From the NCBI RefSeq assembly GCF_022647505.1, contig NZ_CP071409.1:930001-994000 (forward strand): DNA of 64,000 bases. The letters are read 5' to 3'. Of this stretch, positions 1 to 42,509 are shown in pieces. The position numbers and the translations under genes were made by a program. The DNA is from [Pantoea] beijingensis (lineage in GTDB: Bacteria > Pseudomonadota > Gammaproteobacteria > Enterobacterales > Enterobacteriaceae). The notes beneath the pieces are model-generated. The model did no database searches. It was not told where the DNA came from and worked only from the letters and a program-made list of their open reading frames with translations. How positions within the stretch are numbered: position 1 is the stretch's first letter; every line of letters begins with the position of its first letter.

Positions 1-155
1 TTAATTGCATAAAAATACATTCGCAGTGAAGAACAAGCAAGCGATGATTTGTGGCACTTTTATGCAAGTGGATGGGAAAACTGCTCAATTTCACCAGCAG
101 AGTGGAGTCGGATTAAAAGTTGTGGGATGATTGAGCCGTTTTTCAGGGGGCGGGG

Positions 156-473: not shown

Positions 474-476
474 ATA

Positions 477-1196
477 ATGACCAACATTGCAGGTTCCTTT
501 CCGGATGTAATCGCCGTTGTGCCTGCGGCTGGCATCGGCAGCCGCATGCTATCTGATTGCCCTAAACAATATTTGACCATCGGCCATCAAACTCTTCTTG
601 AGCACAGTATAGCCAGCCTGCTTGCGCATCCGGCAGTGACCCGTGTAATCGTCGTTCTGAGCCCGGAAGACACTCAATTTTGTCGTCTATCCGTTGCCAG
701 TGATAAGCGAGTTACCTGTGTCGCAGGTGGAAGGCAACGCGCCGACTCCGTACTGGCTGGTCTTCAACTAGCCGAGGGAACGGGGTGGGTGCTGGTCCAT
801 GATGCCGCACGCCCTTGCCTGCATCCGGATGATTTAGCACGGTTGCTTGCTATTACCCATACCAGCCGCGTTGGTGGCATTCTGGCAGCACCTGTGCGCG
901 ATACGATGAAACGGGGCGAGCCTGGAACGGCTGCGATCGCTCATACCGTTGAACGTAATGATTTGTGGCATGCACTTACGCCGCAGCTGTTTCCGCTTGA
1001 GCTCTTGCGTCGTTGCCTGCTTCGAGCCCTCAACGAAGGTGCCGTTATTACTGATGAGGCTTCTGCGCTGGAGTATTGTGGCTATCATCCTGAACTGGTT
1101 ATGGGACGTAGCGATAACATTAAGGTGACGCGGCCGGAAGATTTAGCGCTGGCGGCGTTCTATCTGACTCAACTTAATAATGGGGAGAACGCGTAA
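477..1196 (+). CDS. ispD: 2-C-methyl-D-erythritol 4-phosphate cytidylyltransferase
   Basis: IspD transfers CMP from CTP to 2-C-methyl-D-erythritol 4-phosphate, the third step of the MEP isoprenoid pathway in the cytoplasm. The 239-residue product has the nucleotide-binding start [12 protein letters not shown] (about residues 13-24), the central VHDAARP motif and the C-terminal KVTRPEDL motif of the family. Its stop overlaps the start of ispF by one base, so the two are translationally coupled, as in most enterobacteria. Length is normal and no defect is visible. Confidence 0.96.
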
Positions 1197-1675
1197 TGCG
1201 TATCGGTCACGGTTTTGATGTTCACGCGTTTGGTGGAGAAGGACCGCTGGTGATTGGCGGCGTGCGAATTCCTTACGAAAAGGGACTGTTAGCTCACTCT
1301 GATGGGGATGTTGCCCTGCATGCGTTGACGGATGCACTGCTAGGTGCTGCTGCATTAGGTGATATTGGCAAATTGTTTCCGGACACCGATCCCGCCCATA
1401 AGGGCGCTGATAGTCGGGGACTGTTGCGTGAAGCATGGAAAAAAGTTTATGCGAAAGGGTACAGGCTGGGGAATGTTGACGTAACCATCATTGCTCAGGC
1501 ACCTAAAATGCTGCCGCATGTCCCGCAGATGCGCATTAATATTGCAGAAGATCTGGGCTGCCATATGGATGACGTCAATGTGAAAGCCACTACGACGGAA
1601 AAGTTGGGCTTCACCGGGCGCGGAGAAGGCATTGCTTGTGAGGCCGTTGCGCTTATTTTTAAGGCAGGTTCCTGA
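1196..1675 (+). CDS. ispF: 2-C-methyl-D-erythritol 2,4-cyclodiphosphate synthase
   Basis: IspF cyclises CDP-methylerythritol phosphate to 2-C-methyl-D-erythritol 2,4-cyclodiphosphate with loss of CMP, the fifth MEP step, working as a homotrimer. The 159-residue product carries the metal-binding GHGFDVHAF motif near the N terminus, the [17 protein letters not shown] helix with the third metal ligand His, and the C-terminal [15 protein letters not shown] signature. It overlaps ispD by one base and its last base is the first of truD. Full length. Confidence 0.97.
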
Positions 1676-2724
1676 TGGATATGCTGAATCTCACCCGGCT
1701 GTACGGCAAACCGGCAGCGAGCGGTAAGCTGAAGGCCAATCCTGAAGATTTTGTTGTCATCGAGGATCTTGGGTATCGTCCGGATGGGGATGGCGAGCAA
1801 TTGCTAGTACGCATTCGCAAAAAGGGCTGCAACACACGTTTTGTGGCGGAGGCGCTGGCAAAATTTGTCGGAATTCACGCAAGGGACGTAAGCTTTGCGG
1901 GGATGAAAGATCGCCATGCTGTGACTGAGCAGTGGTTTTGCCTGCGTTTACCGGGAAAAGTGACGCCAGATTTATCGGCTTTCGATCTGGAAGGATGCGA
2001 AGTGCTTGAAAGTGGACGCCATCGACGCAAACTCCGCATCGGCGCGTTACAGGGCAATGCTTTTAAACTGGTGTTACGCAATGTTAGCGATCGTGCGGCG
2101 GTAGAACAGCGCCTGGAGCAAATCCGGGTTAATGGAGTACCTAACTATTTTGGTCTGCAGCGCTTTGGCCATTCGGGTAATAATTTGCTGCAGGCAACCC
2201 GCTGGGCTGAAGGTTCGATCCAGGTGCGCGAGCGTAGCAAGCGCAGTTTCTTATTGTCTGCTACGCGTAGCGCATTATTTAATTGGGTGGTCAGCGAACG
2301 TTTGGCACAGCAACATTCGCTTTGTCAGGTAATGAAAGGTGATGCATTACAGCTAACCGGGCGTGGCAGCTGGTTTGTGGCCAATGCCGAAGAGTCAGAC
2401 ATGCTGCAGCAACGCGTTCATCATAATGAACTACGCATCACTGCGCCACTTCCCGGCAGTGGTGAATGGGGAAGTCGTGATGATGCGCTGGCATTCGAGC
2501 AGCAGTGTTTGGTGGCAGAAACGCGGTTAATGGCATTACTTGAACGTGAACGCATAGAAGCAGCAAGGCGCGCGATGTTGGTTATTCCCGATCAGTTACG
2601 CTGGAACTGGTGGGATGATGCCACTCTTGAAATGAATTTTTGGCTCCCCGCAGGAAGTTTTGCCACCAGTGTGGTACGTGAGATCCTTGAACAACAAAGC
2701 GATGATGTAGAGATCTCGGAGTAA
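1675..2724 (+). CDS. truD: tRNA pseudouridine(13) synthase TruD
   Basis: TruD converts U13 of tRNA-Glu to pseudouridine. The 349-residue product has the family motif around [12 protein letters not shown] with the catalytic Asp at residue 79 (Asp80 in E. coli) and the [10 protein letters not shown]-terminal signature. The start is coupled to the ispF stop. In E. coli and relatives surE begins inside the 3' end of truD; here the next conserved gene, surE, lies 16.4 kb downstream, so an accessory block has been inserted right after this stop codon. Confidence 0.95.
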
Positions 2725-2802
2725 AGAAAACTTTTTTACATTTTCCCTTCAGATTAAATGATTCGGTTACTCGTTATCAGATTCCCTTTATGAACATGAC
2801 CT

Positions 2803-2836
2803 GGAGCTTGTTGTGTAAATGAGCTCCACATTTTTT
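2803..2836 (+). terminator. Probable rho-independent terminator of the ftsB-truD operon
   Basis: GGAGCT (2803-2808) pairs with AGCTCC (2822-2827) around a 13-nt loop, followed shortly by six T (2831-2836). It lies 79 bp after the truD stop. The stem is short, so the call is moderate. Confidence 0.5.
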
Positions 2837-3187
2837 ATCCTTTTATGTGAAGTTTCTCTCATTTTATAAAAACGCCACTTCTGAACGTAACTCCACGTTT
2901 TCTCCCTGATTCTCCATCAAAATGCTGTGTTTTTAATCAGTAAAAATCCGTTTTTATTTGATAAATTTATCTTATGTTTTTTTTGAGAGGTTCATCTTTT
3001 TGGCGTTGCTTTGGCTGAATTTTGAACTCATTAGCATTGCTGTACAATAATCATAAAACATACTTAATGAATTAATATTGTAAATATCAATAAGTTGAAT
3101 CAATTTGTAATTTTTAGTCGTAAAAAATGTTAACTTAAGTGGGATTAATCTTGTTGAGAATTGGTTGTGGCGATCGATTGGATCTAT

Positions 3188-3208
3188 ATGATAGCCTGTG
3201 GCTATCAT
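3188..3208. repeat. Perfect 9-bp inverted repeat
   Basis: ATGATAGCC (3188-3196) and GGCTATCAT (3200-3208) are separated by TGT. No T-run follows on the plus strand, so it is more likely an operator or a structured leader element than a terminator. It sits 160 bp upstream of the EAL-like gene. Confidence 0.45.
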
Positions 3209-3367
3209 GATTTGAGTTTATGACCGATTATACCAATTTTTATTCTCTGAATTTAAAGAGTAATATTAAGTTACATTAACGATTGTGCCCCACGTATATG
3301 ATTTACGTAGTAAATTAATTTCTTAAAGTTGATTTGTAAGTATTTTTTAATCATAGGGGGTAGATAC

Positions 3368-4027
3368 ATGAAAGATGGTAATGCTTATCTGTTTAGCTTT
3401 GAACCAATCTACACTGTTTCTGGCTCACTCTTTGCATTTGAGCTAATGACTCGATGCGCGGCTGTAGAAAATCCGAACGGATGTCAACAGGCATTGAGTG
3501 CAGGAGATTGCCAACGTTCTGTCACTCAGAAAATCACACTCTTTGAAGAGCAGATCGGTGTTATCAGCGATAGATTTTTTTCTGATAAGGACGCGCCCAT
3601 TATTTCTGTCAATATTGACACTGACATTTCGAAATACATCCTGGGTAATTTATCAATGCGCAATATGCTGAAGAAAATGCCGAGATTACGATTTGAAGTT
3701 AATGAGGAAATCTTTCATCTCAACAGTACTGATGCAGAGAACTGGAAAAAAATTACACAATATTGTCCGGTTTGGCTTGATCGGTTTGGATTCGGAAATT
3801 CAAGTCTTATTACAGTAATTGATGGGCATTTCGAATATGTCAAAATTAGCAAGGATTTTTTCTGTAAGTATAAAGAAAGTACAGCTTTAAGAAAATTGCT
3901 GGATTATATCAAGCCTTACTGCAAGGGTATTATTGTAGAAGGCGCGGGAACTTCCTCTTTCAGAGATCTTTTAACCTCCCTGCAAATATTTGCATTGCAG
4001 GGAGGTTTTTTACTTATTGATATATAA
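3368..4027 (+). CDS. Degenerate EAL-domain protein (YdiV-like, probably non-catalytic)
   Basis: The 219-residue product aligns by motif with EAL-type cyclic-di-GMP phosphodiesterase domains, but key sites are changed. EAL is replaced by ELM within FELMTR near the N terminus (the Glu is kept). The Asn of ISVNIDTD and the EVNE motif are present, but the usual DDFG loop reads DRFG, losing one metal-ligand Asp, and the C-terminal QGY motif is LQGG. This recalls YdiV/RflP-type EAL proteins that act by protein binding, not hydrolysis. I chose the ATG at 3368 because AGGGGGT (3355-3361) lies 7 nt upstream; a TTG at 3329 would add 13 residues. It lies upstream of a biofilm-type adhesin gene, so a role in its control is plausible but only inferred. 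Confidence 0.7.
   Translation: MKDGNAYLFSFEPIYTVSGSLFAFELMTRCAAVENPNGCQQALSAGDCQRSVTQKITLFEEQIGVISDRFFSDKDAPIISVNIDTDISKYILGNLSMRNMLKKMPRLRFEVNEEIFHLNSTDAENWKKITQYCPVWLDRFGFGNSSLITVIDGHFEYVKISKDFFCKYKESTALRKLLDYIKPYCKGIIVEGAGTSSFRDLLTSLQIFALQGGFLLIDI
3973..4011 (+). terminator. Strong intrinsic terminator inside the 3' end of the EAL-like gene
   Basis: CCTCCCTGCAA (3975-3985) pairs perfectly with TTGCAGGGAGG (3995-4005) around a 9-nt loop, and TTTTTT follows (4006-4011). Two flanking A-T pairs extend the stem. The hairpin is inside the coding sequence, ending 16 nt before the stop codon, and its second arm encodes part of the LQGG motif. Confidence 0.8.
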
Positions 4028-4418
4028 ATAAAAAACCGACTCCTGCCAGGGTTTGCTAAGTGGTTAACAAAGTAAAAGAAGATGCAAATATACATGTTTC
4101 TTATTTACCTGTTTCAGAACCATGGGATCACTATGCGCAAATTTTATTCCAATTTATTTTAGAGGGATAAGACAGATGAAAGCATTTCCAAAAATAAAGG
4201 ATACGCCCTTGGGTATTCTTAATTATCTGCGTCTGGACTATCCCTAAGAAATTCTCAGTAAGACACAATATAAAGTTAATAACGTTGTGACAAAAAGAGA
4301 ATGAAAAGTAGTCATTGTGCAGTGCAGTAAGTGTTTTCAATACAGAGTAAATGGACGTTTAGGTGATGGTGATTATTCCGGAACCGCTTAACTCAATCCT
4401 TGTTGGGAGTACAGGTTT
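4028..4418. other. Gap between EAL-like gene and giant adhesin, with possible coding debris
   Basis: No convincing gene lies here, but two short protein-like frames do. One runs from GTG 4060 to TAA 4170 (36 residues, including YLPVSEPWDHYAQ). The second starts at ATG 4176 after an AGAGGGA ribosome binding site (4161-4167) and stops at 4245-4247 after 23 residues; past the stop the same frame continues for 18 codons to TGA 4302-4304 (EILSKTQYKVNNVVTKRE). This looks like a decayed small gene or genes. The adhesin promoter should also be in this stretch. Confidence 0.4.
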
Positions 4419-7400
4419 ATGAACAATATATCGATAACTGAGAAAGGTAGTGGCAACACTTCCAGTCTCAATGCTGAAGAGGTCAATTTAGATTCTCCCA
4501 GCATAGTTAAATTACAACTGGAAAGGCGCGATATTGCGTCTTTTAACCGATCTGGTAACGATCTCGTCGTTACTCTCCATTCTGGTGAAAAACTCGAGCT
4601 GAAAAATTTTTTCCTGGCGGATGCGCAAGGGAATACCAGCGATTTAGTATTGGAAGATGAACAGGGAGCGTTGTGGTGGGTACAGGATCCCGGGGCTGGA
4701 TTCCATTTTGAGTCGATATCTGGCCTTGAAGATCTCATGATTGCGGGAGAAGGTTCTGGCTACACCGGGCCTTTGGCCATGGCTGCCGCTGGTGCGGTAG
4801 GCATCGCCGCAATGTTCCTTGGCGCGAATAATAGCGATGGTCATTCTAATACTGAAACCATCGACGATTCCGACAGCGATGCAGATTCTGACAGTGACGC
4901 AGATTCTGACGCTGACGCTGACGCTGACGCGGATGCGGATGCCGACAGCGACTCGGATTCAGATGCGGATGCGGACGCCGACAGCGATTCTGATTCTGAC
5001 GCGGATGCGGACGCCGACAGCGATTCTGATTCTGACGCGGATGCGGATGCCGACAGCGACTCGGATTCAGATGCGGATGCGGATGCCGACAGCGATTCGG
5101 ATTCAGATGCCGACGCGGATGCCGACAGTGACTCGGATGCCGATGCCGATGCGGATGCCGACAGTGACTCGGATGCAGATGCCGACGCGGATGCTGACAG
5201 TGACTCGGATGCAGATGCCGATGCGGACGCTGACGCGGACGCCGACAGCGACTCAGATTCAGATGCGGATGCGGACGCCGACAGTGATTCGGATTCTGAC
5301 TCTGACGCCGATGCCGATGCCGATGCGGACGCTGACAGTGACTCGGATTCCGACGCGGATGCGGACGCCGACAGTGACTCGGATTCAGATGCGGATGCGG
5401 ATGCCGACAGTGACTCGGACTCTGACGCCGATGCGGATGCTGACAGCGATTCTGATTCTGACGCCGATGCCGACGCCGACAGCGACTCGGATTCCGACGC
5501 GGACGCCGACGCCGACAGTGACTCGGATTCAGATGCGGATGCGGATGCCGACAGCGATTCCGATTCTGACGCGGATGCGGATGCCGACAGTGACTCGGAC
5601 TCTGACGCCGATGCGGATGCTGACAGCGACTCGGATTCAGATGCGGATGCGGATGCCGACAGTGACTCGGACTCCGATGCCGATGCGGATGCGGACAGCG
5701 ATTCTGATTCTGACGCCGATGCCGACGCCGACAGCGATTCGGATTCAGATGCTGATGCGGATGCCGACAGCGATTCGGATTCAGATGCTGACGCGGATGC
5801 AGACGCCGACAGCGATTCGGATTCAGATGCTGATGCAGACGCCGACAGTGACTCGGATTCTGACTCTGACGCCGATGCTGATGCGGATGCTGACAGTGAC
5901 TCGGACTCTGACGCCGATGCGGATGCGGACGCCGACAGCGATTCGGACTCTGACGCGGATGCGGACGCCGACAGTGACTCGGATTCAGATGCGGATGCCG
6001 ACGCCGACAGCGACTCGGATTCAGATGCGGATGCGGATGCCGACAGCGATTCGGACTCTGACGCGGACGCGGACGCCGACAGTGACTCGGATTCAGATGC
6101 GGATGCGGACGCCGACAGCGATTCGGACTCTGACGCGGATGCTGACGCCGACAGTGACTCGGATTCAGATGCGGATGCAGACGCCGACAGTGACTCGGAT
6201 TCAGATGCGGATGCGGACGCCGACAGCGATTCGGACTCTGACGCGGATGCTGACGCCGACAGTGACTCGGATTCAGATGCGGATGCGGACGCCGACAGCG
6301 ATTCTGATTCTGACGCGGATGCGGATGCCGACAGTGACTCGGATTCTGACTCTGACGCCGATGCGGACGCCGACAGCGATTCGGACTCTGACGCGGATGC
6401 GGATGCCGACAGCGATTCGGATTCTGACTCTGACGCCGATGCGGATGCGGATGCTGACAGCGATTCCGATTCTGACGCGGATGCGGATGCCGACAGCGAC
6501 TCGGATGCAGATGCGGATGCGGATGCCGACAGTGACTCGGACTCCGATGCCGATGCGGATGCGGACAGCGATTCTGATTCTGACGCCGATGCCGACGCCG
6601 ACAGCGATTCGGATTCAGATGCTGATGCAGACGCCGACAGTGACTCGGATTCTGACTCTGACGCCGATGCGGATGCGGATGCTGACAGTGATTCGGATTC
6701 TGACTCTGACGCCGATGCTGATGCGGACGCCGACAGCGACTCTGATTCTGACTCTGACGCCGATGCGGATGCGGATGCTGACAGTGACTCTGACGCCGAC
6801 GCGGATGCAGACAGTGACTCGGACTCGGACTCTGACGCCGATGCGGATGCAGACAGCGATTCTGATTCTGACGCCGATGCGGATGCCGACGCCGACAGTG
6901 ACTCGGACTCTGACGCCGATGCGGATGCAGACAGCGATTCTGATTCTGACGCCGATGCGGATGCGGACGCCGACAGTGACTCTGATTCTGACTCTGACGC
7001 CGATGCTGATGCGGACGCCGACAGTGACTCGGATTCTGACTCTGACGCCGATGCGGATGCGGACGCCGACAGTGACTCGGATTCTGACTCTGACGCCGAT
7101 GCTGATGCGGATGCCGACAGTGACTCGGATTCTGACTCTGACGCCGATGCGGATGCGGACGCCGACAGTGACTCGGATTCTGACTCTGACGCCGATGCGG
7201 ATGCGGACGCCGACAGTGACTCTGATTCTGACTCTGACGCCGATGCGGATGCGGATGCTGACAGTGACTCTGACGCTGACGCCGATGCGGATGCGGACGC
7301 CGACAGTGACTCGGATTCTGACTCTGACTCTGACGCCGATGCGGATGCGGATGCCGACAGTGACTCGGATTCTGACTCTGACGCCGATGCGGATGCGGAT

Positions 7401-10400
7401 GCCGACAGTGACTCGGATTCTGACTCTGACGCCGATGCTGATGCGGACGCCGACAGCGACTCTGATTCTGACTCTGACGCCGATGCGGATGCGGATGCTG
7501 ACAGTGACTCTGACGCCGACGCGGATGCCGACAGTGACTCGGATGCAGATGCCGACGCGGATGCTGACAGTGACTCGGATGCAGATGCCGACGCGGATGC
7601 TGACAGTGACTCGGATGCAGATGCCGATGCGGATGCTGACAGTGACTCGGATGCAGATGCCGACGCGGATGCTGACAGCGACTCGGATGCAGATGCCGAT
7701 GCGGATGCTGACAGCGACTCGGATGCAGATGCCGATGCGGATGCTGACAGCGACTCGGATGCAGACGCCGATGCGGATGCTGACAGTGACTCTGATGCCG
7801 ATTCAGACAGCGACTCAGATATACCCGGAGCGGTAGACGATAAAGCGACCCTTGAAATTGGCACCAGTGTTGAAACTACAGACCACGGTGCTTCATCGAA
7901 AAGTGGTTTCCTGCTGGCTAACCTCGGGCTGGGTGAAGTATTGGATGTGACGCTGATTGATTTGCAGAATCAGGCCACATTCTCGGTAGACGATAATGAA
8001 TCGCGTAGCATCACGGTACAGGCGAGTGCGGGAGGGCTTTCAGTTCTGTCCACTTTTGACCTGTTTATCTACCGGTTCAATGAAGATACGCAGAAATATG
8101 AGCAGTATCAGCATCTCGATGACTGGTTAAGGGTTGTAGCAATTGGTGGCCGTTCGGAAGAACTGACGCTGACGCTACCTAAAGGAGATTATGTCTTCCT
8201 GCTGCAAGCCGATCAGGGACTATCGGTAGCAACGGGCTATACGTTGAACGTATTGGAAGATATCTCTCATACCGTAGAAACCTCTTCTGGAAGCGTGGAC
8301 GGTAATGTTATTACCGGAGACAGCGAGGGAACAGGTGGTGATACCGCTCCTGCAGGCAGTGTCATTAGCAGTGTCAACGGCATAGCCATCAATGCTGACG
8401 GAACCACGGAGATTGAGGGTAAATACGGTACGTTAACGATCGATGCGCAAGGTAACTATACCTATACGCTTACGGAGGGTCTGCCGCCGTCCTCAATTAC
8501 CGGGCCGGAAAACTTCAACTATGTCCTGACCGGCCCTGGCGGTCAAAACAGCTCGGCTACGTTGACTGTTGATCTGACACTTCCGGAAGTTCAGGCTGTT
8601 GACGATCAGGCGACGCTGGATGTCAGAACTGTTGTGGAAGAAACCGACCATGGCGCTTCAGCAAAAGCCGGTGTGCTGCTAGCCAACCTCGGTCTGGGGG
8701 ACGTGCTGGATGTGACGTTAGTCGATCTACAGAATCAGGCACAATTCAATGTTGCCGATGATTCAGTGCGTACCGTGACGGTGCAGGCGAGTGCGGGTGG
8801 TCTTTCAGTACTCTCCACCTTTGACCTGTTTATCTATCAATTTAATGAGGATACGCAGAAGTACGAGCAATATCAGCACATTGATAACTGGTTAAGGATC
8901 CTGGCGGTCGGCGGTCGTTCGGAAGAGCTAACGTTAACGCTGCCTAAAGGGGATTATGTCTTCCTGCTACAGGCTGATCAGGGACTTTCGGTAGCAACTG
9001 GCTACGTGCTGAATGTTCTGCATGATGTAACCCACGCAGTTGAGACGAGCACTGGTTCTGTCGACGGCAATGTCATTACCGGTGGTGATGAGGGCATCGG
9101 AGGTGACTCAGGACCGGCAGGTACGTTAATTTCCACGGTAAACGATGTGGTGATATCACCGAAGGGTACCACGGAGATTGAGGGCAAATATGGCACGCTG
9201 ACGATTGATGCACAGGGTAATTATACCTATGCCTTAACGCAGGGCTTACCCCCCTCCAGCATTACCGGGCCGGAGATCTTTAACTATGTACTGGCCGGTA
9301 TTGATGGTTCAAAAAGCGCGGCAACACTGACGATCAATCTGGAACTGCCGGATATTCAGGCGGTAGATGATGTCGTCTCTCTGGAAGCCTCAGCACTACA
9401 GGTGGAGAGTGAGCATAGTGAGCCGGGGACCTCGGTAAGCTGGCAAAGTGCGCTGTTTAACTCAACAACCGGCACGGCGAGCAGTACGTTCCATATAGAT
9501 GATGGTGTGGCGCTGAAGGATATGGCGTTGGGTATCAATATCAGTGGCGCTGCGCTCACTGGTGTGAACATCACTTATACCATCGCTGATGCGAACGGCA
9601 CGGTACTTGTCACAAATACGGTCTCTGGCGGGACCTTACTTGGCAGCAATCCATCAATTTCTCTGGGAGGACTTGAGCTGACAGAAGGGGATTATACCCT
9701 GACGCTTAGCGGCAGAGTGGGGCCGCTGGCTATCGGTACGGTGACAATTTCCTCTACTGTGACCGGAACCGAAGTGGCGTTAAGTGAATTCCATACCGGT
9801 GATTCGATAACGGTCGAAGGGCATATCTTCGATGGTTCCGGTTCAGAGGGCATACCGGATGAAATTTCATCGCTGTACACCACTCTGACGATCACTGACG
9901 CCAATGGTACGGATACTACGCTGGTTCAAGAGGAGGGCAGTTCTACCGTCGATATTGCTGGTCACTACGGTACGCTGACGCTCAGTACTGATGGCAGCTA
10001 TAGCTACAGTCTGAATGAAGGTATCAACATAGCGGATATTACGGAGAAAGAGGCGTTTAACTATACCCTGACGGCACAGGATGGCAGTACATCAAGTGCG
10101 ACCCTGACGGTCAATCTTGACCTGACTATTGAGGGAAGTCGTCATGACGATACGGCAAGCAGCTCGGCTTATGATGATACTTTCACCTTAGGTGCGGGCA
10201 GTGACACGGTGATCTTTAATCTGCTGGATGCAGATGACGCAGCGGGAGGTAACGGTACAGATAATACCTGGACTGATTTCTCCGTAGCGGACAACGATCA
10301 TATTGATGTCAGCAAGCTGTTAAGTGGCTGGGATGGTTCTTCTGCAGATATCGGTAACTTTGTTTCCGTTGAGCATACCGATTCAGGTGACACGGTTGTC

Positions 10401-10520
10401 TCCATCGACCGTGATGGTGCAGGAGATCAGTTCAATTCAACGCAGCTCATCACCCTGGAAGGTGTGGAAGTCACGCTGGATGAACTGTTACAACAAAACT
10501 CCTCCTCATCAGATGCATGA
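4419..10520 (+). CDS. Giant type I-secreted adhesin with Asp/Ser/Ala repeat stalk (BapA-like)
   Basis: This 2033-residue acidic surface protein is the predicted substrate of the downstream type I secretion system. Domains in order: a BapA-prefix-like N-terminal domain (residues 1-115); a Gly/Ala-rich hydrophobic segment (about 116-137) containing AAAG at 122-125; a repeat stalk of only Asp, Ser and Ala (about 149-1134); two tandem 255-residue beta-rich domains starting at residues 1138 and 1393 that are close copies; a third, divergent unit from about 1648; and a C-terminal secretion region (about 1905-2033) with [10 protein letters not shown] and a Gly/Asp stretch like the VCA0849-type T1SS target domain. 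There is no Sec signal peptide, as expected. The beta domains end in VCBS-like [18 protein letters not shown] units. Family knowledge: BapA/LapA-type proteins act in biofilm formation. Start ATG follows GGGAG with acceptable spacing. The stalk may be glycosylated by the product at 15611-18748 (inference). Confidence 0.88.
4863..7820 (+). repeat. Tandem 36-48 bp repeats encoding (Asp-Ser)n(Asp-Ala)n
   Basis: About 2.96 kb in which every second codon is GAC or GAT and the codons between are Ser or Ala only. By hand I count about 75 units, each opened by GAC-AGC or GAC-AGT. The first Ser of each unit is AGY and later Ser codons are TCN, which marks the unit boundary. Three zones can be seen: mostly three Ser plus three Ala (36 bp) up to about 6600, mostly four plus four (48 bp) at about 6600-7500, and two Ser plus four Ala (36 bp) at about 7530-7790. 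Such an array should vary in length by recombination and slippage. It also creates long stop-free shadow frames on both strands. Confidence 0.97.
7830..9359 (+). repeat. Two tandem 765-bp copies of a 255-residue adhesin domain
   Basis: Copies at 7830-8594 and 8595-9359 have exactly the same length and nearly the same protein sequence; both contain [19 protein letters not shown] and [20 protein letters not shown]. The DNA has diverged at many third positions, so the duplication is not recent. A third unit from 9360 keeps the domain start AVDD and the VCBS-like end but differs between. Confidence 0.92.
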
Positions 10521-10572
10521 TGAAGTGGCGATCTGAGTAGCATTTATCAGCACAGGGATGTGCTTTAAATGG

Positions 10573-10609
10573 AAATAAAGAGGGAGAGATTAATTTTCCT
10601 CTTATTTTT
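10573..10609 (+). terminator. Weak hairpin between adhesin and TolC-like gene
   Basis: AAATAAAGAGG (10573-10583) pairs with CCTCTTATTT (10598-10607) with one bulged base, in a T-rich context. It may be a partial terminator that lowers expression of the secretion genes relative to the adhesin. The 232-bp gap holds nothing else that I can name. Confidence 0.35.
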
Positions 10610-10752
10610 CCAGATAAAGCTGACGCGGCATGACTTCGCGTTAATAAGGATCATCTTTTTCTATTGATTAGCAGGGGCATGTTTTTTGAACGTTAAAAAT
10701 CACCTCTGGCTTGTTGAGCGTTAATCAATGAATCTGATTTTTAGGAAGAATT

Positions 10753-12195
10753 ATGTTTATTTATCGCCATCGCAGAATAGGTACTACCTGCTTTTTTATC
10801 GCCGCCACTACGTTTTTTTATAGTTGTGCGGTAACGGCACAATTGCAAAACCAGTCTGATTCTGCCGGAGTGATCAGTACACAGCATATTATTCCGCAAC
10901 AAGAACTTCCCAGCCTGTCCGGACCAACGCCAGATAATATGCCGGACCGTGCGCCAGATGTACTTGATATTAAAAATGCCGTACAGCGGGCCGTGCAATG
11001 GCATCCCGATATTAGTGAGGCAATCGGGGTACTGTTTTCTCAGTCTGAAAAGGTTGATGTTGCCCGTGCTAAATATTACCCGCAAATTAGCGGAGGATTT
11101 AATAACGGTATTACGAATACATATCGTGATAATGGTTATAGTCCATCGCTGGTTTTATCGCTTTCTCAGATGCTCTATGACTTTGGTAAAGTCGACAACG
11201 CCGTTCGTGAAGCTAACGCGGCGGTTGCTCAGCAGCAGGCTAACGTTTTGGTTAGCATCGATACCATTGCCCATGATGCGGCAGCAGCCTTGGTACAGGT
11301 TCAGGGGTATCAGCAGTTAGTCTCCATCGCTCAGGATCAGCTACAGGCACTCAATAGTATTGGTGACCTGGCTCGTCAGCGTAATGATGAAGGCGCCAGC
11401 TCGCTCTCTGATGTAGTGCAAACCCGCACGCGTATTGAAGGTGCCCGCGCGACCTTAACGCAATATCAAGCCAGTCTGGATCGTTGGCGCGCAACATTAG
11501 CCACCTATATGGGGTGGAAAATGATCAATCGGGTCAACAACGATTTTCCGGGCGAGTTGGCAAACGCCTGCCAGACAACGCAGGTTGACGATCGGCTTGT
11601 GCCTTCGGTGTTAGCCGCGTGGGCCAGAGCCAATCAGGCGCAGGCGCAGGTGGCTTCTGCTGATGCTCAGATGTTGCCCACGATTTCACTGGAGCCGGAG
11701 GTCACGCACTACCTCAACGATCGTTACGCCAATAGCGCTGCGCTGGATCGTACTCAATACTCTGCCTGGGTGCGGGTACAGATGCCGCTTTACCAGGGCG
11801 GCGCGCTTTCCGCCAGTCGTAATGCCGCACAGCACAGTCTGGAGGCGGCTAATGCTGCGGTTCGTACCGCTCAACTCGACGCGCGTCAGCAGTTAAGTGA
11901 AGCGCAAAACGAATCTGGAAGCTTACAGCAAACACTGCAGATCCAGGCACGTCAACAGGCGTTGGGCGAAAAGACCCGTTCGCTTTATCAGGATCAGTAT
12001 TTACAACTGGGTACTCGCCCTCTACTGGACGTACTGAATGCTGAACAGGAGATTTATCAATCTCGTTTCACTGAGCAGCAAACGCAAAGCCAATTAAGGA
12101 GCCTTCAACTGGACTGCCTGTACAGCACCGGCAGAATAAGAAGCGTATTTACTCTGGATAGTCAGGCCATCCAGGGTGTGGAGATTAGACCATGA
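10753..12195 (+). CDS. TolC-family outer membrane channel of the adhesin T1SS
   Basis: The 480-residue product is a TolC/LapE-type outer membrane efflux protein that would form the exit duct of the type I secretion system. It has an N-terminal signal-type hydrophobic segment (about residues 9-29) and two long helical, Gln/Ala-rich OEP repeats, with a YPQISGG motif after the first helix and an NAEQEIYQ motif near the end. An AGGAAG site precedes the ATG. Its TGA overlaps the ATG of the ABC transporter (ATGA, 12192-12195). A dedicated TolC paralogue next to its substrate is typical of Bap and Lap adhesin loci. Confidence 0.9.
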   Translation: MFIYRHRRIGTTCFFIAATTFFYSCAVTAQLQNQSDSAGVISTQHIIPQQELPSLSGPTPDNMPDRAPDVLDIKNAVQRAVQWHPDISEAIGVLFSQSEKVDVARAKYYPQISGGFNNGITNTYRDNGYSPSLVLSLSQMLYDFGKVDNAVREANAAVAQQQANVLVSIDTIAHDAAAALVQVQGYQQLVSIAQDQLQALNSIGDLARQRNDEGASSLSDVVQTRTRIEGARATLTQYQASLDRWRATLATYMGWKMINRVNNDFPGELANACQTTQVDDRLVPSVLAAWARANQAQAQVASADAQMLPTISLEPEVTHYLNDRYANSAALDRTQYSAWVRVQMPLYQGGALSASRNAAQHSLEAANAAVRTAQLDARQQLSEAQNESGSLQQTLQIQARQQALGEKTRSLYQDQYLQLGTRPLLDVLNAEQEIYQSRFTEQQTQSQLRSLQLDCLYSTGRIRSVFTLDSQAIQGVEIRP

Positions 12196-14384
12196 GCCAG
12201 TTGGAAAATACATTCAACGACGTTCCTGATAACGGCGATACTAGCGCAGATTTAACCGATTGGGTGACGGCAATTACCTATATTGCCAGTCATTATCGAC
12301 TTGATTATTCATCAGGTGAGTTACTGGCGATTGCCCGTTGGCAATGGAATAATCCACTGCCTGTTGTGTTAAAAAATCTGGCACGGCAGGCTGGATTATC
12401 GGGAAAAATACTGGCTGCTAAAGATCACGATATTTCTGTGTGGCGTCTTCCGCTGGTTATTCAGCTTAAGGACGGTCAGATTGGTATTATTAAAACGTTT
12501 GATGGTGTTGATCAAATCGGCGTTAGTTTTATTCACGATGAGGGATTGGTAAACACGCTCTCATTCTCACAATTATTACCAGATATTAGCAGGATCATTG
12601 CTTTTCGTCCGGCAGCGGCGGCAAAAGATATTCGGGCTGACAGTTATCTGGAAAAGTATAAGCCTGACTGGTTACGTAAACTGGTTATTCGGGATTTAAA
12701 ACCATACTGGCATGTCATGTTGGCCTCGCTGCTAATTAATGTACTGGCGCTTGCGGGTATTCTTTTTTCTATGCAGGTTTATGATCGGGTCATCCCCGCG
12801 CAGTCTTTTCCAACGCTTTACGTATTATTTATTGGCGTACTTATTGCCGTTATATTCTCATTTATTTTACGTGTGGGACGGGGGCATGTTACCGATATTT
12901 TAGGTAAACAGGCTGATATGCGTGTCTCCGATCGCGTGTTTGGCCACGCATTGCGATTACGAAATAGTGCCATACCACGCTCTACCGGGAGCTTTATTTC
13001 ACAAGTGCGTGAATTAGAGCAAATACGCGAGATGGTAACGTCAACGACCGTATCAGCCATCGTTGATATGCCTTTCTTTTTACTTTTCTTACTGATGTTG
13101 ATGATTATCTCTCCTCAGCTGGCATGGATAGCGCCGGCGGCGGCGTTATTGATGATCGCCCCGGGTCTGCTGTTACAGAAAAAATTATCCCACCTGGCAC
13201 GTCAGTCGGTACATGAGTCAACGTTACGTAACGCGGTATTAGTTGAGAGCCTACAGGGGCTTGAAGATATCAAATTGATGCAGGCGGAAGACCGCTTTCA
13301 GCAGCAATGGAACAGTTATATTGCGGTAACGGCGCAGTCGGGCGTACGTACGCGACGGATCACTCAGGGGCTGATTAGCTGGGGTATGACTATCCAGAAT
13401 CTGGTATATGCCTCGGTGGTTTTAGTGGGGGCGCCGTTGGTCATTAACGGTGATATGACGACCGGCGCGATCGTTGCAGCATCGTTACTGTCGTCACGGA
13501 TGATTGCTCCGATGTCTACGCTTTGTGGTGTGCTGGCGCGTTGGCAGCAAGTTAAGGCAGCAAAGTCCGGTTTGGACAGCATTATGAAACTACCGGTTGA
13601 GAATAGCCGGGAAGAGACAAAGGTTCATTGCGCAGCATTGTATGGACATTATCGGCTAACTGCTGCTGCCTTCAGTTATCACACCGAATCATCTCGCGTA
13701 CCGTTAAGAGTCGGCAAACTGGAAATTAAGCCCGGAGAAAGGGTTGCGGTGTTGGGGCGCAATGGTGCAGGCAAATCGACCTTTTTGCAGGCGCTGGCGG
13801 GGGGGATGGAGCTTACCGAAGGTGAGCTGCTACTGGACGATCTGAGTTTGCCGCATATTGATGTCGCCGATCTGCGACGGAATATCGGTTTACTGACGCA
13901 AAATGCCAGGTTATTCCACGGTACGTTGCGGGATAACCTGACGCTGGGCGCGCCACAGGCCAGTGACGACGATATTTTCAGCGTGCTGGAGGTATGCGCT
14001 GCGGCTGATTTCGTCAGGCGGCTACCGCTGGGGCTTGACCATCCTATTATGGAGGGAGGGCTAGGCCTGTCGGGCGGGCAGCGTCAATCGATTCTGCTGG
14101 CCAGGATGTTATTACGCGATCCGAATATTGTACTACTGGATGAGCCGACCGCTTCACTGGATGAACATACCGAGCAGGATTTCCTGCAACGCCTTTCTTT
14201 ATGGCTGGCAGGCCGAACGCTCATCGTCGCTACCCATCGGGCTGCAGTACTGGAATTAGTCGACCGGGTCTTAGTTTTCAAAGAGGGTAACCTGGTGATG
14301 GATACACCAAAAGAGAAAGCGTTTAACCATGCGGAAAAGCGGGCCCGTCGTCAGGAGTTCAGCAATGAAAATCAATCAGCCTGA
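12192..14384 (+). CDS. Type I secretion ABC transporter (LapB/LssB-like, C39-like domain)
   Basis: The 730-residue inner-membrane ABC exporter powers secretion. An N-terminal C39-peptidase-like domain (about residues 20-145) contains no cysteine, so it cannot act as a peptidase and probably docks the substrate. The transmembrane region spans about 165-440. The nucleotide-binding domain has Walker A GRNGAGKST, signature LSGGQ, Walker B IVLLDEPTA and a following ATHR switch His. This layout matches T1SS transporters for large adhesins. It overlaps the TolC-like gene by 4 nt and the HlyD-like gene by 20 nt, indicating one operon. Confidence 0.92.
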   Translation: MSQLENTFNDVPDNGDTSADLTDWVTAITYIASHYRLDYSSGELLAIARWQWNNPLPVVLKNLARQAGLSGKILAAKDHDISVWRLPLVIQLKDGQIGIIKTFDGVDQIGVSFIHDEGLVNTLSFSQLLPDISRIIAFRPAAAAKDIRADSYLEKYKPDWLRKLVIRDLKPYWHVMLASLLINVLALAGILFSMQVYDRVIPAQSFPTLYVLFIGVLIAVIFSFILRVGRGHVTDILGKQADMRVSDRVFGHALRLRNSAIPRSTGSFISQVRELEQIREMVTSTTVSAIVDMPFFLLFLLMLMIISPQLAWIAPAAALLMIAPGLLLQKKLSHLARQSVHESTLRNAVLVESLQGLEDIKLMQAEDRFQQQWNSYIAVTAQSGVRTRRITQGLISWGMTIQNLVYASVVLVGAPLVINGDMTTGAIVAASLLSSRMIAPMSTLCGVLARWQQVKAAKSGLDSIMKLPVENSREETKVHCAALYGHYRLTAAAFSYHTESSRVPLRVGKLEIKPGERVAVLGRNGAGKSTFLQALAGGMELTEGELLLDDLSLPHIDVADLRRNIGLLTQNARLFHGTLRDNLTLGAPQASDDDIFSVLEVCAAADFVRRLPLGLDHPIMEGGLGLSGGQRQSILLARMLLRDPNIVLLDEPTASLDEHTEQDFLQRLSLWLAGRTLIVATHRAAVLELVDRVLVFKEGNLVMDTPKEKAFNHAEKRARRQEFSNENQSA

Positions 14385-15588
14385 TCCATTGGCGGATACC
14401 GCCGGAACCCGATTACTACTGGATGATAGCGAAGGGCAGGTCAATGACGATAGCGCACTGTCTGGATCCTCGCGGGTTATCGTTATTATTAGCCTGTTAC
14501 TGGCCGTGGCGGCGGTCTGGGCATGGTTTGGTGTTTTAGATGAAGTCTCGACCGGAACGGGGAAAGTGATCCCGAGTTCCAGAGAGCAAGTATTACAGTC
14601 GCTGGATGGTGGGATTTTAGTCGAGCTGAATGTTAAAGAGGGCGATATGGTGCAGGCCGGGCAGGTGGTTGCCCGGATGGACCCAACGCGTTCTGAATCT
14701 AATGTTGGTGAAAGTGCTGCGCGCTATCGAGCCTCACTGGCAGCCGGTGCTCGTTTACATGCAGAGGTCAATGATTCGCCCTTAACTTTTCCGGATGAGC
14801 TGAAGGGGTGGCCTAATCTGACGGCAACAGAAACCAGGTTGTATAACACGCGTCGTGCTCAGCTTACGGAATCTGAGTCGCGAATTAGAGAGTCGCTGGA
14901 TTTGGTCGTCCGGGAACTGCAAATCACCGAAAAACTCGCGAAAAGCGGTGCTGCCAGTAACGTAGAAGTCTTGCGCTTACGGCGCCAGAAATCAGATCTG
15001 GATCTGAAGCTCACTGATTTACGTTCACAGTATTATGTGCAGGCCCGGGAGGAGTTGGCGAAGGCGAATGCTGAGGTTGATACACTTTCGGAGGTGATTA
15101 AGGGCCGCTCGGATTCTGTGACGCGCCTGACGGCTCGCTCACCCGTACGCGGTATCGTTAAAAATATTAAGGTCACCACCCTCGGCGGCGTTATTACGCC
15201 GAATGGTGAATTGATGGAAATTGTCCCTCTTGATGATCGGTTGCTGATTGAAGCCAGGCTTTCACCGCGTGATATTGCCTTCATTCGTCCGGGACAGCAG
15301 GCTCTGGTGAAGATCACCGCCTATGACTACGCTATTTATGGCGGTTTAGATGGTGTGGTCGAAACCATTTCGCCCGATACCATTCAGGACGAAGTGAAAC
15401 CCGAGAATTATTACTATCGGGTATTCATTCGTACCGATCTTGATTATTTACAAAATAAAACCGGCAAGCATTTTTCTATTGTGCCGGGGATGATTTCGAC
15501 GGTGGATATTAAGACCGGCGAGAAAACAATAATGGACTATTTAATTAAACCGTTTAACCGGGCTAAAGAAGCGCTCAGAGAGCGTTAA
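14365..15588 (+). CDS. HlyD/LapC-family periplasmic adaptor of the T1SS
   Basis: The 407-residue membrane-fusion protein links the ABC transporter to the outer membrane channel. After a short cytoplasmic segment there is one membrane helix (about residues 34-53), then a beta-barrel/lipoyl half (SLDGGILVELNVKEGDMVQAG, broken here for length into the lipoyl motif around residue 80), coiled-coil hairpin helices (about 145-245), the second lipoyl half (SPVRGIVKNI) and a C-terminal barrel ending near VPGMISTVDIKTGEK. I start at ATG 14365 because AGGAG (14353-14357) precedes it by 7 nt; an ATG at 14329 would add 12 residues. It overlaps the ABC gene. Confidence 0.92.
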   Translation: MKINQPDPLADTAGTRLLLDDSEGQVNDDSALSGSSRVIVIISLLLAVAAVWAWFGVLDEVSTGTGKVIPSSREQVLQSLDGGILVELNVKEGDMVQAGQVVARMDPTRSESNVGESAARYRASLAAGARLHAEVNDSPLTFPDELKGWPNLTATETRLYNTRRAQLTESESRIRESLDLVVRELQITEKLAKSGAASNVEVLRLRRQKSDLDLKLTDLRSQYYVQAREELAKANAEVDTLSEVIKGRSDSVTRLTARSPVRGIVKNIKVTTLGGVITPNGELMEIVPLDDRLLIEARLSPRDIAFIRPGQQALVKITAYDYAIYGGLDGVVETISPDTIQDEVKPENYYYRVFIRTDLDYLQNKTGKHFSIVPGMISTVDIKTGEKTIMDYLIKPFNRAKEALRER

Positions 15589-15610
15589 TATTTCGACTGG
15601 AGGAAAGAGG

Positions 15611-18600
15611 ATGTCGCTAAGTGAATTATTACAGCTCGCCCGTGGCCAGGCTGAAAAACTAAAGGATACGGCCTTACCATCGGAATACCCGGCCTGGGTG
15701 CTTTTTTTCAGTATCGCGAATGGTTCTGAACGGGCCAGTGTGCACATTGCTACTGGTTCGAGTTTTGAAAAAGCCTGGCTGAGCGGTGCTCAAACATTAC
15801 AGCAATGGAAAAAGAAGCAGAAAAAGCAGCCTGAGTGGCTGCGTGTGGATATTGTTGATCGGGTCGAAGCACTCAGTTGGCAGGTATTACAGGATAAATT
15901 ACAGCAAACTAAACGTAACTATTTTCGCTTTGGACTGGCGTTTGATCCACAATTTTCCCACGCGATCCTTGAGCAGGAGATCGGTGCCGGAGCGCTTCTT
16001 TATGATGGCAAGATTGGTGTTGCGACGCCCAATGCTATAAACCTGAATAACTATGCTAAACGTCGGTTTGGCGAGCCACTTGACTGGCCTGAAAGGGCAG
16101 AGCAATCGATATGGCGTTTTACCACCCGGGCTGTTTTTACTGACGGTTCCCGGGCCTGGCGAATTGAACACCAGGGGCGAAATGCTGGTTATCGGCAGAT
16201 TACCCACTGGCCTGCAGAACATGTTGCGACAGTCATTGATAGCGCTACTGACTATTTATCGCGTCAGATAAAGCTATCCGGTGAATATTATTATGGCTGG
16301 TTTCCCTGTTTTGATCGTCCTATCCCCTCTTATAATGCTTTGCGCCATGCCAGCTCAACCTATGCATTACTTGAAGGTTGGGAACTGACCCAGGATAACA
16401 GCCATAAAGCGGCGATCGATCGTACGCTACGCTATTTAACGCAGCAGTTAATACACAGTCAGCAGTTGGCTGATGGTACTGAAGCCGATTTTTTAGTAGA
16501 TGTTGGCGATGAAATAAAGCTGGGGGGGAATGCGGTCAGCATTCTGGCGCTGGCGAAATATACAGAACTCACCGGTGATCAGCAGTATGTTGCCCAGATG
16601 GAGCGGCTGGCAAACGGCATTGCGTATATGCAGGACCGCCTCAGCGGTGCATTTGTACATGTACTGAATTATCCTGATCTGTCGGTCAAAGAAGCTCAGC
16701 GCATTATTTATTATGATGGTGAAGCGGCTTTTGCCTTGATTCGCCTTTATGCCATCACCAAAAATGAACGCTGGTTACAGATTGTCGAAAGAGCGTTTGA
16801 TTATTTTATTGCACAGAAACACTGGCGTGCACACGACCATTGGCTGAGTTATTGCGTTAATGAATTAACGATGTACCGGCCGGAGGCGCGTTATTATCAG
16901 TTTGGTCTGGATAATGTGCGAGAACATCTTGATTTCGTACTCGAGAGGATAACGACTTATCCGACGCTACTGGAATTAATGATGGCGGCACAGCGGATGA
17001 TCGCCAGGTTGCTCGTCGATCCTCAGCATCGCTATCTACTGGACGATTTTGATCTTAATAAATTTGGACGTGCGCTGGAATATCGAGCGCGCTATCTGCT
17101 CAACGGCTTTTTCTGGCCGGAACTGGCGATGTTTTTTAAAAACCCACAGCGTATTGTTGGAAGCTTCTTTATTCGTCATCACAGTTATCGCGTCAGGATT
17201 GATGACGTTGAGCACTATTTATCTGGTTATGTGGCCTATCTTAAATATCTTAATAACCAGCAGATAATGAAATTATCATCTCCGGTACGGGAGGAGTCTC
17301 GACAGCAGGTTGTCTTTCTGTGCGCAGATATACGTAATGTGGGAAACGGTATCGAAGCGGCAACGCTGAGCCGAGCCAGATTGTTCGCCAGGCAGATGGA
17401 TATAGCGCCATGGATTGTTACATCCGAGTGGAATCCGGCGCTTGCTGATAACGTCGAGATGCTAAAAAAAGCGGGAAAATTACCGTCCCGGGTGCAGGTG
17501 TTTAATATATATCACTGGCTGATTTCTATGCGCGATCGGGGGGAGATTGGTTTTTTACCGGATAACCCGCAGCGCGTCATTAGCGGCATGCCTCAGTCCG
17601 GATTGGGCGGCATAAAAATGATAACGTACACGTTACAGGATCCGGATGGCGAACAACGTTGCCATGAATTTCTTGATGATCAGCACCGGGTATTGTTGCG
17701 TAAGTGTTACCGGGAGTACCCGGGGAAAAGCACGCTAATTGGCATTGAAATTAATGATCATCGATATGGAATCATGACGTTTAGCCATCAGGCAGGTTTT
17801 AACGCCGCAATGCTGGAGGCGAATCTGGACTGCGCCACCGAATGGCACTTCATTGTTGATAAAAATCAACCCTGGAGCGAGTTTGTGAATTCCAGGCCGC
17901 AACAGCGGTTTCATGCAACCGTGACTGCGCTGATTCATTCCTCGCATCGTTTACCGAATGGTGAACGTAAAGGTACCTACAGGCATATCCTCGAACAGCA
18001 TCAGCGGGTTGATCAATTGGTGGTACTCACGGAGGAACAGCGTCAAGACTTAATTGGTGAGGGATTTCCTGAGCACAAACTACGCGTTATCCCCCATCCT
18101 GCAGAGGCACGATATTCAACTGATACGCTGGACAAGATCCCCTCAAAGCAGGTGCTCTATATGGCGCGCTACTCGCCGGAAAAGCAGCATGGTTTATTGA
18201 TTCGGGCATTTGAGCGGGTAGTAGACGCGATACCGGATGCACAGCTGCAGACCTATGGTACCGGCCCGTTACGCGCAGCATTACGCAAGCAGGTAATGCA
18301 AAAAGGGCTGGATTCTCATATTCATATTAATGGTTTTTCCGATGATATCGCCGAAATTCAGCGTCGTTCCTGCTGTGCGGTGCTGTGTTCTAACCAGGAG
18401 GGGTTTTCCCTGTTTGGTTTGGAATCACTGGCCCACGGGACGCCGTTGGTGAGTTTTGCGATTAAATACGGACCTCGCGATCTGCTGCACGAATATGACG
18501 CGGGTGTGCTGGTCACTGAAGGGGATGAGCGAGCGCTTGCTGATGCGCTGATCGCGATAATCAATGACCCAGGTAAACAGAAGCATATGCAGCAGCAGGC

Positions 18601-18748
18601 TTTATGCAGCGCCGGACGCTTTTATAGCGAACTCATCGCGGAGAAGTGGCAGCGATGGTGGCTGGATATGCGTCAGTTTGATCATGTTAACCGGCAGTAT
18701 GACGAGCCCGTTATCGCCGTGTCCGGAATAACCTATCGACAGGAGTAG
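15611..18748 (+). CDS. Two-domain glycosyltransferase, TagE/SdgB-like GT4, candidate SD-repeat glycosylase
   Basis: The 1045-residue product has two parts. Residues about 185-500 look like an alpha/alpha-toroid (six-hairpin) sugar-acting domain, with RHASSTYALLEGW and IIYYDGEAAFALIRLY. Residues about 560-1035 form a GT4-type GT-B fold: a TagE-like start NVGNGIEAATLSRARLF (from residue 576), a NIYHW segment, the donor-domain pattern YMARYSPEKQHGLLI, and an EX7E pair at Glu930/Glu938 in EGFSLFGLE. In staphylococci SdgA/SdgB of this broad family glycosylate Ser-Asp repeats. Here the gene follows the secretion genes by 22 bp with a strong GGAGG site, in the operon of an adhesin that is half Ser-Asp/Ala-Asp repeat, so the repeat is the likely acceptor (inference). 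No signal peptide, hence cytoplasmic action before export. An alternative is teichoic-acid-like or surface polysaccharide synthesis, which the context does not support. Confidence 0.8.
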   Translation: MSLSELLQLARGQAEKLKDTALPSEYPAWVLFFSIANGSERASVHIATGSSFEKAWLSGAQTLQQWKKKQKKQPEWLRVDIVDRVEALSWQVLQDKLQQTKRNYFRFGLAFDPQFSHAILEQEIGAGALLYDGKIGVATPNAINLNNYAKRRFGEPLDWPERAEQSIWRFTTRAVFTDGSRAWRIEHQGRNAGYRQITHWPAEHVATVIDSATDYLSRQIKLSGEYYYGWFPCFDRPIPSYNALRHASSTYALLEGWELTQDNSHKAAIDRTLRYLTQQLIHSQQLADGTEADFLVDVGDEIKLGGNAVSILALAKYTELTGDQQYVAQMERLANGIAYMQDRLSGAFVHVLNYPDLSVKEAQRIIYYDGEAAFALIRLYAITKNERWLQIVERAFDYFIAQKHWRAHDHWLSYCVNELTMYRPEARYYQFGLDNVREHLDFVLERITTYPTLLELMMAAQRMIARLLVDPQHRYLLDDFDLNKFGRALEYRARYLLNGFFWPELAMFFKNPQRIVGSFFIRHHSYRVRIDDVEHYLSGYVAYLKYLNNQQIMKLSSPVREESRQQVVFLCADIRNVGNGIEAATLSRARLFARQMDIAPWIVTSEWNPALADNVEMLKKAGKLPSRVQVFNIYHWLISMRDRGEIGFLPDNPQRVISGMPQSGLGGIKMITYTLQDPDGEQRCHEFLDDQHRVLLRKCYREYPGKSTLIGIEINDHRYGIMTFSHQAGFNAAMLEANLDCATEWHFIVDKNQPWSEFVNSRPQQRFHATVTALIHSSHRLPNGERKGTYRHILEQHQRVDQLVVLTEEQRQDLIGEGFPEHKLRVIPHPAEARYSTDTLDKIPSKQVLYMARYSPEKQHGLLIRAFERVVDAIPDAQLQTYGTGPLRAALRKQVMQKGLDSHIHINGFSDDIAEIQRRSCCAVLCSNQEGFSLFGLESLAHGTPLVSFAIKYGPRDLLHEYDAGVLVTEGDERALADALIAIINDPGKQKHMQQQALCSAGRFYSELIAEKWQRWWLDMRQFDHVNRQYDEPVIAVSGITYRQE

Positions 18749-19155
18749 CCATGATCATGTAGCGGCTCGGGGAAGCGGGCCGCTACAAATATATGGCGAT
18801 CGCTCTGCGCTAAATAGTGGTCGTGCTTTTCTACACTCGCTATGTTCCCATAGTGAACAACGCCTGCAATTCTCAAAATTTAACAACAGGAAATTTGCGG
18901 CTACCACTCCCCACCCCTACGCGATAGAATGCGTCATTTACTGCGGTAAGCGCGGTATCAACCAGGTTTGTGACAAGTTGCCCATTATATTTGGTGTTGC
19001 ACTTACGTTAGCTGTTGTTATTGAGGGCAGCCAAACTTACCAGAACGTGAGCGTTCTCTGGCCGCTTATCGCTGTCAGTTCCATGGGCGTTCTCGTGCTT
19101 CCGGAATGGTTTAGGGCACAGGTATGATTCATTTAAATTATAAGGTTACGCTGTA
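18749..19155. other. Island right border; gene-free gap with a possible membrane-protein remnant
   Basis: A stem TAGCGGC (18760-18766) / GCCGCTA (18779-18785) lies 11 bp after the glycosyltransferase stop but lacks a T-run. One frame is open from within the preceding region to TGA 19125-19127, over 110 codons. It has no credible start, yet ends in a hydrophobic, protein-like stretch (LPIIFGVALTLAVVIEG, then VLWPLIAVSSMGVLVLPEW). It may be the tail of a decayed membrane protein at the island border. The surE promoter must be here, since truD is no longer adjacent. Confidence 0.4.
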
Positions 19156-38605: not shown

Positions 38606-38607
38606 GG

Positions 38608-42508: not shown

Positions 42509-42509
42509 C

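Follow-up and report, generated by a model that had tools for sequence, protein, structure and literature searches.

A BapA-type adhesin island of [Pantoea] beijingensis encoding an SdgB-like glycosyltransferase fused to a conserved N-terminal module

The adhesin island and its transferase

We analysed a 64,000-nucleotide stretch of [Pantoea] beijingensis DNA (contig NZ_CP071409.1, positions 930,001–994,000; the window, in whose own numbering coordinates are given). Between truD and surE lies an island that carries genes for a giant adhesin with an alternating Asp stalk, the TolC-family, ATP-binding cassette (ABC) and HlyD-family components of a type I exporter, and a transferase in which an N-terminal half, referred to here as NDOM, is fused in front of a GT4 glycosyltransferase (GT) domain. 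All of the genes claimed in an initial annotation of this DNA were recovered on the plus strand and in the same places. The features of the island are as follows.

2725–19155, no strand: the island, about 16 kb, between truD (ends at 2724) and surE (starts at 19156), by NCBIfam
4419–10520, plus strand: BapA-type adhesin, 2033 residues, by Pfam and NCBIfam matches
4419–4760, plus strand: BapA_N prefix domain, residues 1–114 (Pfam PF22783, 1.6e-36)
4863–7820, plus strand: alternating Asp stalk, residues 149–1134, by composition (231 DSD and 261 DAD triplets)
8745–10121, plus strand: adhesin C-terminal family NF045619, residues 1443–1901 (1.7e-165)
10753–12195, plus strand: TolC-family outer-membrane component (TIGR01844, 313 bits; cut-off 225)
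12192–14384, plus strand: LssB-type type I ABC permease/ATPase (TIGR03375, 769 bits; cut-off 693)
14329–15588, plus strand: HlyD-family adaptor (TIGR01843, 322 bits; cut-off 209)
15611–18748, plus strand: NDOM-GT4 fusion (the transferase), 1045 residues, 22 bp past the HlyD stop
15611–17260, plus strand: NDOM, residues 1–550, comprising an N-terminal subdomain (1–197) and then a putative AGE-like (alpha/alpha)6 barrel (198–550)
17300–18700, plus strand: SdgB-like GT-B domain, residues 564–1030, with a shortened inserted beta domain, by sequence and Foldseek
18398–18424, plus strand: EX7E pair, residues 930–938 (SdgB Glu406 and Glu414)

The longest frame of the HlyD gene runs into the ABC gene, and its real start may be further on. 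The BapA prefix domain, the C-terminal family and an LssB-type exporter scoring over its cut-offs place the adhesin with the BapA/Bap/LapF type I adhesins, and it also has the defining feature of beta-type BAP proteins (PMC4647330), a long tract in which Asp alternates with Ser or Ala. Given the family matches and a gene order that recurs in other loci, chance can be dismissed. The longest run made up solely of Asp, Ser and Ala spans 986 residues (494 D, 261 A and 231 S), with Asp in practically every second position of the stalk (alternation 0.999). The stalk had been described as a Ser-Asp (SD) repeat with 980 such residues; the restricted composition is confirmed, but about half of the stalk is Asp-Ala, the two units occurring in roughly equal shares. 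Both Asp codons, all four Ala codons and all six Ser codons are used, and this mixing of synonymous codons throughout the run argues that the protein pattern is kept and that the stalk is not a plain DNA microsatellite.

Over residues 564–1025, in its GT half, the transferase most closely resembles SdgB. NCBIfam ranks SdgA (1.6e-41) and SdgB (8.4e-40) first, and a comparison with SdgB, TarM and GtfA, proposed at the outset, also puts SdgB in front when the GT4 profile is run against PDB sequences (3e-73, versus 8e-54 for TarM and 4e-34 for GtfA). Foldseek ranks 1–10 are all SdgB; the VIA comparison places TarM chains above SdgB. The predicted GT-B GT4 fold with an inserted beta domain is the one that characterises SdgA and SdgB, and both the TagE-like segment (NVGNGIEAATLSRARLF, beginning at transferase residue 576) and the EX7E pair lie in the protein as first reported. 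The donor and catalytic residues of SdgB (His246, Arg329, Lys334, Glu406 and Glu414; PMC8561734) correspond, when mapped by hand along the alignment, to columns H211, R288, K293, E365 and E373, none of which varies among the 15 aligned fused GT4s, the window's included.

The SdgA and SdgB scores of 142.4 and 136.9 bits are far under the curated cut-off of 800, so the transferase is not an SdgB orthologue. Moreover, a 38-residue stretch is missing from the window enzyme and from 13 of the 14 other fused GT4s, and with it six residues which PMC8561734 includes in the SD-peptide groove of SdgB (Tyr124, Asn126, Phe128, Arg132, Lys134 and Arg137). A groove-like segment, judged by eye, is kept in three GT4s without an NDOM fusion, namely those of L206 and L099 and the PGA_cap-GT4 protein of L100. 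(L numbers denote the DNA stretches or loci that were read, and G numbers the genomes or places of a BapA_N survey of the family.) The SdgB/TagE-like label given initially is thus sound as to nearest relative and retained catalytic residues, and not supported as to orthology and the groove. The transferase has no further full relative in the single 4.1-Mb contig of the window's genome, where the two remaining matches reach only 1.8e-4 and 3.6e-4.

NDOM, a separate module that the initial annotation overlooked while reporting the genes correctly, is conserved and has no Pfam or NCBIfam name. Its profile gave a single match to PDB sequences, at 0.17, and hhalign with one PF07221 member gave no match.

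Partner enzymes and stalks of NDOM relatives

Among 295 genomes of the family, 26 gave a match to the transferase or to NDOM, 11 of them with the full-length fusion and 15 with NDOM alone. The NDOM profile was matched in 5 of the 369 genomes searched for the class, two of these matches being partial and weak, and in 14 of 398 for the phylum; the family and phylum counts include the window's own genome. A wider genome collection contained at least 598 stretches with the search pattern, at least 499 of which encode a relative, and the best 80 relatives were retained for reading; none of 36 pattern stretches from viral contigs encodes one. Klebsiella, Citrobacter, Kluyvera and Kosakonia are among the genera with relatives, which also occur on E. 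coli plasmids.

In these relatives NDOM is fused to, or has as its neighbour, a GT4 or GT2 enzyme, a MurF-like ligase or a cyanophycin-synthetase-like ATP-grasp enzyme, often near alternating-Asp adhesins which are either BapA-type or LapA-type with LapG and LapD. Pfam finds Mur ligase domains in L031, L032 and L045, a Mur ligase with S11 peptidase and PGA_cap in L048, PGA_cap with Mur in L098 and L103, GT2 in L057 and three ATP-grasp stretches in L034, and the partners at the remaining loci were labelled by BLAST to family-scanned representatives. MurF models rank first in NCBIfam, under their cut-offs, for the Mur partners of L031, L045 and L048, while the top match for the ATP-grasp part of Agrobacterium L034 is cyanophycin synthetase (5.8e-112, also under cut-off). 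Where the adhesin is LapA-type, the Mur gene runs divergently and is frequently one gene away, making the functional link weaker there than in the fusions.

Several individual loci are of separate note. L165 (about 1–11800) holds an HlyD-like end, NDOM and then Mur/PGA_cap-like and several ATP-grasp-like BLAST matches, possibly a richer ligase-type version. A Gly-Asp alternating tract begins at about 8445 of L173, upstream of a distant NDOM relative at 10146–11687. In L029, a record of Klebsiella aerogenes that is given as a plasmid and has several genes split in its annotation, and in L033, an E. coli plasmid of a Hoplobatrachus isolate, an adhesin frame with an SD tract is followed by the exporter and NDOM-GT4 genes.

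The pairing of transferase and adhesin genes, for which a genome survey had been suggested, recurs widely. Type I export genes or LapG/LapD are present in the stretch read at 25 of 26 distinct GT4-fused loci (window included); an Asp tract lies inside that stretch at 18 of the 26 and in further DNA of the same genome at four more (L043, L060, L093 and L096, on other contigs for the last two). BapA_N itself is present in 112 of the 295 family genomes. As a control, 48 of the 51 best-scoring BapA_N places among the matches listed were read directly behind the domain, many of them visible for only some 400–500 residues. Eight of the 48 have an Asp tract, and seven of these eight are in genomes with NDOM-GT4, on the same contig in G000, G001, G011, G027 and G242 and on other contigs in G002 and G074. 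The eighth, G119, belongs to the window's own genus; its type I genes are the same, and the position of the fusion, directly behind HlyD, is taken by an SdgB-like GT4 that is not fused. Behind that GT4 there is a 402-residue open frame (L206, 3–1208, minus strand) without a Pfam match at 1e-3. The other 40 places have no tract, and six of them are in genomes that bear an NDOM elsewhere (G246, G158, G056, G183, G262 and G195).

Stalk composition follows the type of partner. The comparison took in the 52 loci that had both a hand-set partner label and 40 or more tract residues in view. For L096, L099 and part of L063 the tract comes from another contig of that genome, several tracts are cut short at contig ends, and nine further tract loci, at which no partner was seen, were omitted. 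Ser and Thr make up at least 45% of the non-Asp tract residues at 24 of 27 GT loci, versus 2 of 25 ligase loci (Fisher 3.6e-9; Mann-Whitney 1.3e-5). The 45% line was chosen after the window's value of 46% was known, and lines of 30 to 60% give 22–24 of 27 versus 2–3 of 25. Among LapA-type loci only, the stalk is hydroxyl-rich in 7 of 7 with a GT and in 1 of 21 without.

Stalk tailoring before export and the alternatives

GT4 enzymes of the SdgB kind take nucleotide sugars, and type I substrates go directly from the cytoplasm to the outside; for these two reasons any modification would be expected to be cytoplasmic. We consider it probable that a BapA-type adhesin secreted by the type I route and a dedicated enzyme that tailors it before export are both products of the island; the enzyme would O-glycosylate stalk serines in the cytoplasm, with NDOM as a shared stalk-handling module. 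This proposal draws on the gene order, the adhesin and exporter families, the SdgB-like GT-B domain with its key residues, the fusion of NDOM in front of it and the association of partner with stalk, as they emerge from sequences and structural models. NDOM would bind the alternating-Asp stalk and pass it to the fused GT4, which would transfer a nucleotide-activated sugar (with UDP-GlcNAc as the donor, if SdgB is a guide) to the serines of DSD units, and the TolC/ABC/HlyD exporter would then send out the decorated adhesin. That NDOM may be the stalk-binding part is suggested by the partner swaps and by the missing SdgB-like groove in the fused GT4. The minimum acceptor motif of SdgB is DSD (PMC8561734, section 3.1), and the window stalk presents 231 such units.

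In relatives, NDOM with GT2 would act on Asp-Thr or Asp-Ser stalks, and NDOM with MurF-like or cyanophycin-synthetase-like ligases would join an amino acid to the Asp side chains of Asp-Ala stalks. A broader generalisation, which we put forward tentatively and hold to be possible but not the likelier case, is that NDOM defines a new class of giant-adhesin tailoring before export. The barrel would handle alternating-Asp stalks, GT4 or GT2 would put sugars on Ser or Thr, the ligases would put amino acids on Asp carboxylates (chemistry akin to that of cyanophycin, with a backbone that is genetically encoded), and stalk and partner would coevolve. The initial scope of an enzyme dedicated to Ser-Asp was dropped, given the Mur ligases, ATP-grasps and GT2 joined to NDOM in relatives and the near-serine-free Asp-Ala stalks at some GT4 loci.

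A number of observations weigh against the proposed tailoring of the stalk by NDOM and its partners. The net charge of NDOM is near neutral (+6 and -7), and the SD stalk of G119 manages without NDOM. Ser content and partner also part company at individual loci: Pantoea coffeiphila L061 keeps its GT4 with 3 Ser in 1522 stalk residues, and Asp-Ala stalks accompany the GT4s of Erwinia L060 (Ser 5% of non-Asp residues) and Entomohabitans L063 (12%). Conversely, Ser-rich stalks occur at ligase-labelled L162 and L087 (the L087 label being weak, from a weak BLAST match with no NCBIfam hit), beside NDOM with no GT seen in Pluralibacter L110, which is among the nine omitted loci, and, outside the count, elsewhere in the genome (L245) of the NDOM-Mur locus of Oceanospirillum L130. 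The adhesin adjoining Rosenbergiella L093, also outside the count, has no tract across 1702 visible residues; the same genome has an SD tract at another place. Finally, the loci are related by descent, and the NDOM tree affords only three independent partner contrasts on supported branches and five on all. Over 200 pairings a mean of 2.4 of 3 run in the expected direction and practically none in the opposite one, but with so few contrasts the phylogenetic test cannot reach 0.05.

NDOM genes found apart from adhesins also count against the proposal. Around the Variovorax and Xenophilus NDOM-PGA_cap-Mur fusions the DNA read shows neither a clear type I locus nor LapG/LapD nor an Asp tract, apart from one weak ABC match near L105, and Comamonas L106 has NDOM-GT4 with no type I genes, LapG/LapD or Asp tract nearby. 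BapA_N is absent from six of seven searched Variovorax/Xenophilus fusion genomes (that of L092 has one) and was not found in the genomes of L104, L106 and L130. At least 32 ABC places are listed in 11 of these genomes with adhesin-less NDOM; 13 were read, and one (Oceanospirillum) has an Asp tract. In the other direction, a genome with two NDOM-PGA_cap-Mur-like copies (L160 and L161) has a third NDOM copy, L162, that does have matches to ABC and HlyD, as well as an SD tract, next to it. A strict link between NDOM and adhesins was rejected on the Variovorax fusions lacking a type I locus, and NDOM without a nearby adhesin may serve another substrate.

Of the alternatives, the one that fares best is that the NDOM barrel is itself an enzyme, an AGE-like epimerase or other, altering stalk residues or added groups with the partner acting before or after it; this is compatible with glycosylation of the stalk, although we think it unlikely. 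More doubtful still is a role for NDOM-GT4 in glycosylating Ser/Thr of the folded domains, or Asp, with the stalk a mere spacer whose Ser preference was inherited along with the locus. The paucity of independent contrasts would fit such a role, as would L061, where the five donor and catalytic GT residues are intact with practically no serine in the stalk, and L060, which comes close to this and also retains all five. Against it stand the split of 24 GT loci to 2 ligase loci in hydroxyl-rich stalks, the like difference among LapA-type loci with the same adhesin type but another partner, and the DSD acceptor of SdgB (PMC8561734). Action on a surface polysaccharide or teichoic-like polymer, with the adhesin nearby by chance, is highly improbable in view of the type I genes or LapG/LapD at 25 of 26 GT4-fused loci and the preference for SdgB in sequence and Foldseek comparisons.

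The known systems nearest to the proposed glycosylation of the stalk are SdgB and SdgA of Staphylococcus aureus, which are closest in sequence and share the GT-B GT4 fold, the donor and catalytic residues and an Asp/Ser-repeat adhesin encoded nearby (PMC8561734). The window enzyme differs in its NDOM fusion, its missing stretch of six groove residues and its score under the curated cut-off, and the system in its Gram-negative type I export, as opposed to a wall anchor, and in a stalk with alanine in half of its units. Tracts of this kind are known in Gram-negative BAP proteins, the Acinetobacter beta-type BAP adhesins having SD or Asp-Ala tracts, but no partner enzyme was seen in the available portion of PMC4647330, whereas here one is encoded beside the exporter. 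Glycosylation of Gram-negative adhesins is also established for HMW1/HMW1C (PMC3012730) and TibA (PMC3835316), in which an adhesin is likewise paired with its own transferase. The partners of NDOM relatives differ from cyanophycin synthetase and MurF in scoring under curated cut-offs, in being fused to or beside NDOM and in lying near Asp-Ala adhesins. The HMW1C and TibA transferases belong to other families and act in the cytoplasm before export by type V secretion. To our knowledge, Sdg-like enzymes are known only from Gram-positives, and our searches of open-licence PMC full texts turned up no account of a type I adhesin accompanied by an Sdg-like or NDOM enzyme. If the proposal is right, Enterobacteriaceae tailor giant type I adhesins before export, the GT4-bearing ones by Sdg-like enzymes; a single module serves unrelated chemistries, giving a nameless protein family a function; and the reason why adhesin stalks are Asp-Ser, Asp-Thr or Asp-Ala becomes testable.

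Flanking genes and minor observations

The order along the window is ispF, truD (1675–2724), an EAL protein, the adhesin, TolC, ABC, HlyD, the transferase, surE, pcm, nlpD and rpoS; truD and surE are neighbours in E. coli. Promoter and terminator scans were both uninformative (14 promoters versus 21.2 expected; 19 terminators versus 14.1 expected). One further feature lies 5' of the adhesin.

3329–4027, plus strand: short EAL-domain protein (Pfam EAL, 1.4e-10)

A tblastn search of 55 BapA_N stretches, some of which stop short of the upstream part, found relatives of this protein in 3 of the 54 others beyond the window's own copy (L187), namely L178 and L206, which are one place, and L188. These relatives adjoin the SD adhesin of G119 (L206/L178) and are also found in L188, hinting at control linked to cyclic di-GMP. 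Elsewhere in the window, a GT2 protein and two ketoacyl-synthase-like genes lie in a single run at 36914–46106, which from its look we take to be a cluster of the aryl polyene type.

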